Source: an uncultured Pirellula sp. (GTDB lineage Bacteria > Planctomycetota > Planctomycetia > Pirellulales > Pirellulaceae). Taken from it: DNA of 64,000 nt. The DNA is taken from assembly GCA_903892355.1 (NCBI GenBank), contig CAITIE010000052.1, forward strand, positions 62,001 through 126,000. Direction: 5' to 3'. Every line of letters begins with the position of its first letter. The first letter of the stretch is position 1. The notes below the pieces were generated by a model that saw nothing but the letters and a program-made list of their open reading frames with translations, ran no database searches and was not told the DNA's origin. A program made the position numbers and the translations under genes. Shown in pieces: positions 23,301 to 23,756 of this stretch.

Positions 23301-23729
23301 CGGTGATGATTTCGGTTTAGGGATGCCTTCCTTGGAACTTCTGGGATCGACACGAGGGATAAGCCCAGCAAGCCAATCCGAGCAATGGTTTGCAATGTCG
23401 TGCCATGATAGCTCGCAATACCCTTTCTGAGCCCTCAAACGCCCAAGGCTTAATAGACGGCACAGATCACCGTAGCCCTTACGGTTCGTCGGCCAAACCA
23501 CAAGGGGTGGTCCATCGATGGGATTGAGCTCGCAACCGACGTAGAAAGGTAATCCAAGATCCTTCGCAGCGGTGTGCGCTCGAACGATTCCCGCAAGCGT
23601 ATCTCGGTCGGTGACGGATAGCCCGCGATACCCTAGCTCGACAGCGCGTGCTGCTAGCTCGTGGGCGTGGGATGCCCCCTCGAGAAACGAGAAGTTGGTT
23701 TTGCAGTGCAATTCGACGTAGTTCACCAT
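20361..23729 (-). CDS. dnaE2: Error-prone DNA polymerase III alpha subunit, DnaE2 type
   Basis: This 1122-aa polymerase begins with a PHP domain ([18 protein letters not shown], residues 8-25). It then has the C-family palm with catalytic aspartates in [16 protein letters not shown], the [15 protein letters not shown] and [24 protein letters not shown] segments, and a C-terminal OB fold. Length and organisation fit DnaE2/ImuC, which makes mutagenic translesion patches after DNA damage. Its usual partners ImuA and ImuB are not adjacent. A perfect inverted repeat covers the start codon and may regulate expression. Confidence 0.9.
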   Translation of the reverse strand: [1122 protein letters not shown]

Positions 23730-23756
23730 GGGCTGGCATGCCCTCCATGGTGAACT
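23720..23756. promoter_or_regulatory. Perfect 12-bp inverted repeat over the dnaE2 start codon
   Basis: Arms AGTTCACCATGG (23720-23731) and CCATGGTGAACT (23745-23756) are exact reverse complements separated by 13 bp. The spacer contains the palindrome GGCATGCC (23735-23742). The dnaE2 start codon (23727-23729 on minus) lies in the left arm. It could act as an operator or as an mRNA hairpin hiding the start; either role is inference. Confidence 0.6.

Follow-up and report, generated by a model that had tools for sequence, protein, structure and literature searches.

An inverted repeat over the dnaE2 start codon of an uncultured Pirellula: a possible lineage-specific inverted copy at a probably leaderless gene start

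The dnaE2 gene of an uncultured Pirellula begins inside a perfect inverted repeat, which raises the question of what this repeat does at the start of a mutagenic polymerase gene and how it came to be there. A first-pass annotation had suggested either an operator for an SOS-type regulator or an mRNA hairpin limiting translation. We analysed a 64,000-nucleotide stretch of DNA (the window), which is part of contig C52 of a genome belonging to the Pirellula group (G000), together with the corresponding regions of its relatives. The dnaE2 gene (20361–23729, minus strand, ATG at 23729) encodes a homologue of the error-prone DNA polymerase III alpha subunit of 1122 amino acids, recognised by both NCBIfam and Pfam. 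The protein scores 1324.8 bits against the NCBIfam error-prone DNA polymerase model (cut-off 939) and carries the Pfam PHP, alpha NTPase, finger, HHH, and OB domains. Its N-terminus (15 residues) can be aligned with those of relatives from the first codons onwards, and the protein is 95% identical to that of an uncultured Pirellula MAG record, apparently the same as our relative G005.

The repeat and its occurrence in the genus

The two arms of the repeat are 13 bp long and 100% complementary, and are located at 23719–23731 (TAGTTCACCATGG) and 23745–23757 (CCATGGTGAACTA) with a 13-nt spacer in between. On the coding strand the order is TAGTTCACCATGG–AGGGCATGCCAGC–CCATGGTGAACTA (23757–23745, spacer, 23731–23719). 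The first-pass annotation had correctly recognised a perfect inverted repeat over the dnaE2 start but had given its arms as 12 bp, one less than measured here. Its description of the spacer (23732–23744, minus strand) as 13 nt long with an internal 8-bp palindrome, GGCATGCC, agrees with the sequence, as does its placement of the dnaE2 ATG (23729–23727) within one arm, namely the low-coordinate, downstream (3′) arm (23719–23731, minus strand). The upstream (5′) arm (23745–23757, minus strand) contains a second ATG (23748–23746), 19 nt 5′ of the dnaE2 ATG and out of frame with dnaE2, which opens a frame of 89 codons in G000 and 93 in G005. A Shine-Dalgarno-like GGAGGG (23741–23746, minus strand), whose role in ribosome binding is putative, lies across the boundary between the upstream arm and the spacer. 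The distance from GGAGG to the dnaE2 ATG is 12 nt, and such a GGAGGG–ATG spacing exceeds the usual Shine-Dalgarno distance.

Only one of 100 Markov-simulated windows contained an inverted repeat whose perfect arms reach 13 bp or more and whose spacer is 3–40 nt, while the real window has two such repeats; the repeat at the dnaE2 start is thus unlikely to have arisen by chance. The other (24031–24072, spacer 16 nt) is also a perfect 13-bp inverted repeat and lies within the gene directly upstream of dnaE2 in G000 (23872–24654, minus strand), which encodes a protein of 260 amino acids whose C-terminus carries a UVR (UvrB/UvrC) motif. The DNA of this gene is conserved in G005, where 12 bp of each arm of the second repeat are retained, and different dnaE2 neighbours were found in two other relatives that were read. 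A search of the whole window against Rfam 15 returned no match at gathering score. Within the literature collection searched, the available portions of papers on dnaE2, LexA, leaderless mRNA, and Planctomycetes held no report of this repeat or of a leaderless Pirellula dnaE2.

We searched 27 genomes of the genus, 26 of which contain the dnaE2 start region. The repeat was found in two of these 26 regions (and in two of the 27 whole genomes), those of G000 and its close relative G005, which are sisters in the dnaE2 tree (support 96/94). Conservation before orthologous dnaE2 genes, which had been named as the check on a functional motif, thus goes no further than the closest relative, the other 24 start regions being without the repeat. 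The third member of this clade is G008, whose contig begins inside dnaE2; its start region is unmatched and the ancestral state is unreadable there. Between −63 and +40, a block of 104 bp, the sequences of G000 and G005 do not differ, while the third codon positions of their dnaE2 genes are 82% identical. Two longer identical runs (114 and 108 nt) occur in the same 6.4-kb alignment, so that the 104-bp block ranks third and is weak evidence for selection; we have dropped it as proof of such. Among the relatives, G017 has an 18-bp palindrome (TTGGATGGTACCATCCAA) upstream of dnaE2, starting 72 nt ahead of the position that corresponds to the G000 dnaE2 ATG in the alignment, with one change in its sister G015.

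The operator reading and motifs before other repair genes

In the operator reading, a repressor dimer on both arms would cover the −10 element and the start codon and block dnaE2 until DNA damage occurs. The location of the repeat would suit a repressor and its sequence is identical in G005. Furthermore, the LexA DNA-binding domain (PF01726) was found above cut-off in only one of the 27 genomes (G013), and G000 has a single weak match of 22.5 bits (cut-off 23.7), so that some other regulator may exist there, though nothing ties one to this repeat. Against this reading, the repeat is missing at 24 of the 26 dnaE2 starts, and its arm is rare elsewhere in the genome. G000 has six sites that match the arm with at most one mismatch (on C52, C108, C138, and C153), two of which are the dnaE2-start repeat itself, and neither the recA contig (C53) nor the imuA-imuB contig (C84) carries any of the other four. 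The first-pass annotation had called for a search of the motif before other repair genes, and for recA and imuA-imuB this is what the search returned. The arm was also not seen by eye upstream of recA and imuA in the relatives (25 of 26 recA loci, one of which reaches only the contig end). The fused palindromic core, allowing up to three mismatches, is not enriched either: G000 has 7 such sites and 5 of the reversed pattern, and the 27 genomes together have 68 and 62, respectively (summed by hand). Finally, the half-sites are 26 bp apart from centre to centre, or about 2.5 helical turns, a spacing that would be awkward for one dimer. A shared damage operator at this repeat is therefore unsupported by the sequence comparisons, and we regard the operator reading as very unlikely. 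A perfect repeat over the start of a damage gene need not be an operator.

A candidate promoter motif that is much better conserved than the dnaE2-start repeat was observed at the imuA-imuB-like genes, which lie together on C84 of G000 and were recognised by weak matches (20.8 bits to RecA and 38.1 bits to the Y-family domain). Upstream of these genes, which are split from dnaE2, is the sequence TGGAC-N15-TGCTAGCAT (C84:117820–117848), and the palindrome AATGCTAGCATT is found there in many species. The exact motif is present in 23 of the 27 genomes and, by coordinates, just upstream of the imuB-like match in 21 of these; TGCTAGCAT is located no more than 75 nt from the chosen imuA start in 13 of the 17 loci read. 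When one mismatch was allowed, counts of the full motif were similar to those of the reversed-pattern control. A second exact copy occurs in G000 (C108:10235–10263, minus strand). From its sequence and position, the motif is a candidate for a LexA-independent damage promoter or operator.

The imuA motif was also sought upstream of dnaE2 in 26 genomes, over a stretch of up to 400 nt (128 nt in G011). An exact TGCTAGCAT was found only in G021, where imuA divergently adjoins dnaE2 by coordinates, and a version with one mismatch in G012. In G000 and G005, the whole motif is matched with two mismatches approximately 245 nt upstream of dnaE2, within the neighbouring gene. The recA leaders fall into two types, with GTTGTTGACGT...GCGTTAGCATG or close variants in the part of the genus that includes G000, and dyads such as GTGAACAAG...CTTGTTCAC elsewhere, whose arms seem to change in concert. 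For the upstream dyads of recA, an RNAalifold analysis of 12 sequences did not yield convincing covariation (−0.16), and Rfam returned nothing at gathering scores for four recA loci.

Start signals across the genus and the origin of the repeat

The start signals of dnaE2 in other species suggest a different origin for the repeat. Using a hand-entered −10 scoring matrix, we found that in 12 of 24 relatives a −10-like hexamer precedes the dnaE2 start by 6–9 nt, while any other 4-nt gap bin contained such a hexamer in none or one. Examples are TACAAT at 7 nt in G041, TAGAAT at 6 nt in G007, and TATGTT at 6 nt in G006 and G040; the remaining 12 relatives have no hexamer above threshold at this distance. 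Counted by kinship, the hexamer occurs in 8 of 15 groups (drawn by hand from the tree). The control consisted of ATG ORFs of at least 200 amino acids from 464 kb of G000, of which 5 of 137 have the hexamer at 6–9 nt (Fisher 2.7e-8 against 12 of 24), although their starts are mechanical longest-ORF starts and the control may thus be blurred. Base-shuffled upstream sequences (2000 shuffles) gave a mean of 1.7 and a maximum of 7 of 24. For 9 of the 24 relatives, the codon aligned with the G000 ATG is not a start and a nearby in-frame start was set by hand; five of the 12 matches depend on such starts, three of them scoring barely above threshold (3.6). Without these nine relatives, the hexamer is found in 7 of 15 (Fisher 1.2e-5 against the control).

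Shine-Dalgarno-like tetramers (GGAG, GAGG, AGGA, and AAGG) were absent from positions −18 to −5 of dnaE2 in all 24 relatives, compared with their presence in 49 of 138 ATG ORFs of G000 when its own dnaE2 is included, or 48 of 137 when it is not (Fisher 1.4e-4 against the relatives). A −10 element immediately before the start codon would make the mRNA leaderless or nearly so, and dnaE2 is probably of this kind in many species of the genus. In the sections available to us, a comparative study lists the Planctomycetes, represented by one genome, among phyla with a leaderless and/or ribosomal-protein-S1 signal (PMC5397173).

The arrangement in G000 and G005 is shifted. Nothing scores above 2.5 on the −10 matrix 3–12 nt before their dnaE2 ATG. 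Instead, a putative promoter element, TAAATT (23757–23762, minus strand, matrix score 5.6), precedes the upstream ATG by 8 nt and the dnaE2 ATG by 27 nt in both genomes. This spacing fits the upstream ATG as the counterpart of the start used in relatives. Direct upstream alignment was tried as a means of placing an insertion and was set aside, the sequences being too diverged to prove placement: ungapped, it favours the upstream ATG in 19 of the 24 relatives, with 3 against and 2 ties, at identities near background.

We propose that the ancestral dnaE2 promoter had its −10 element directly before the start codon, giving a leaderless or nearly leaderless mRNA, and that, in the lineage leading to G000 and G005, the gene start acquired a short inverted copy of the −10/start region before the two diverged. 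In its simplest form, a template switch during replication would have written ten bases, with TAGTTCACCATGG copied backwards. The proposed templated insertion is CATGGTGAAC (23721–23730, minus strand), which would be part of the upstream arm copied in reverse. Such a copy would have created the perfect repeat, thrown the old ATG out of frame, and provided a new in-frame ATG 19 nt downstream. Consistent with this, removal of the 10 nt CATGGTGAAC restores the dnaE2 frame from the upstream ATG, which then reads MEGMPAYVELHCK. The repeat also shares two features with template-switch hairpins, being a perfect reverse-complement copy near its source and restricted to one lineage.

Removing 19 nt instead likewise restores the frame, which then reads MVNYVELHC. 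The order of events might accordingly have been the reverse, with a 20-bp perfect palindrome, TAGTTCACCATGGTGAACTA, centred on a leaderless ATG (perhaps as an operator) and later split by a 19-bp insertion with duplication of CCATGG. The three residues preceding the tyrosine in MVNYVELHC do occur in near relatives, for example in G041, G007, and G014. The number of residues before this conserved tyrosine varies across the genus, so both histories are possible on this count. A palindrome that came first would itself require an explanation, as would the source of the insert: we found no donor for the spacer in G000, the single other match having three mismatches, and the 18-bp core with fewer than two mismatches occurs in none of the 27 genomes. 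We consider this alternative improbable. The 10-nt history is preferred since it involves one event of a known kind and requires neither a prior palindrome nor a foreign spacer. The proposed pre-insertion sequence, ATGGAGGGCATGCCAGCC, is predicted to run straight into TAC; neither proposed ancestral sequence was seen in any genome examined.

We thus hold with moderate confidence that the repeat is a lineage-specific inverted copy at a leaderless dnaE2 start, accompanied by an altered leader and reduced or conditional translation. We infer here the transcript start, the order and mechanism of mutation, and the effect on translation. An inverted copy at a gene start is a curious yet ordinary kind of mutation; if the proposal holds, this modest case would show one replication slip rebuilding a bacterial gene start, converting it from leaderless to leadered and adding a hairpin in the same step.

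Predicted translation and comparison with known systems

Following the proposed inverted copy, the present mRNA would have a short leader in which an AUG sits at, or close to, the 5′ end, together with the GGAGGG and a start codon able to pair with the 5′ end. The predicted fold depends on where transcription begins. Minus-strand RNA that includes the whole upstream arm folds at −23.9 kcal/mol (z −3.89), and a transcript from 23756, the first A behind the −10-like hexamer, still forms 12 bp of the stem. A transcript beginning at the upstream ATG folds no better than shuffled sequences do (z 1.17). The calculated cost of opening the dnaE2 start codon is 7.9, 3.0, and 1.0 kcal/mol in G000 and 7.9, 2.7, and 1.3 kcal/mol in G005 for transcripts from 23756, 23751, and the upstream ATG, respectively; for relatives folded from the start codon, it is 0.02–3.3 kcal/mol. 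The corresponding costs of opening the GGAGGG are 9.8, 7.4, and 4.4 kcal/mol. A transcript that begins at 23756 or immediately behind it would thus have both the start codon and the GGAGGG folded away. With one that begins at the upstream ATG, by contrast, the start codon is predicted to be nearly open and the GGAGGG still partly paired. As for the two functions suggested at first pass, the operator is not supported (two of 26 starts, no enrichment), whereas the mRNA hairpin could apply, depending on the transcript start.

Either the hairpin would hide the dnaE2 start, or the out-of-frame AUG at the 5′ end can, on these models, draw 70S ribosomes into the 89-codon frame. Weaker or conditional translation of dnaE2 might result from one or both of these, so lowered or conditional DnaE2 output is predicted, dependent on the position of the transcript start. 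The inverted copy could also be a neutral scar, with a new start that is equally good and a hairpin that has no effect when the transcript begins at the upstream ATG or later, where, as calculated above, the RNA gains nothing in folding over its shuffles (z 1.17) and the start codon, at 1.0 kcal/mol, is open. Even from there, however, the GGAGGG costs 4.4 kcal/mol to open, and an out-of-frame AUG at the 5′ end is a favourable site for leaderless initiation; since both hold, some effect is expected, and we consider a neutral scar unlikely. A stronger version of the proposed inverted copy is that one template switch made a two-AUG, hairpin-gated message in which the choice of transcript start, between hairpin and 5′ decoy AUG, sets the DnaE2 level. 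This is a speculative extension that we think doubtful; if true, it would represent a new, lineage-specific translational switch on mutagenesis.

Hairpins in mRNA that sequester start codons are a known kind of control. With a transcript that begins in the upstream arm, the dnaE2 start would likewise be part of a stem; unlike such hairpins, the repeat has no known trigger, ligand, or conserved structure, and is confined to two genomes. As far as the available portions of the reports describe it, the imuA-imuB-dnaE2 mutagenesis cassette is under LexA control (PMC6511836, PMC3919608, PMC8072749). G000 has the same polymerase and imuA- and imuB-like genes, but here imuA-imuB are split from dnaE2, LexA is below cut-off, and the promoter-like motif of imuA is missing at dnaE2. 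According to Monttinen and Loytynoja (2022, PMC8794818), a single template-switching event is able to generate a perfect hairpin stem. The dnaE2-start repeat resembles those cases in being a lineage-confined, perfect reverse-complement repeat for which one event suffices; those cases are mammalian microRNA loci and rRNA genes, while ours is a bacterial start region in which the ancestor is unobserved and the event is a proposed one. Beck et al. (2016, PMC4965119) describe E. coli mRNAs that have a 5′ AUG and a Shine-Dalgarno sequence for the following gene; when the 5′ frame is disabled, that gene is affected to an extent that varies. The dnaE2 message would similarly have an upstream AUG near its predicted 5′ end, a short leader, a Shine-Dalgarno-like sequence, and the true start downstream. 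It differs from the E. coli mRNAs in that its transcript start is only a predicted one and that both of its AUGs lie in the arms of one hairpin.
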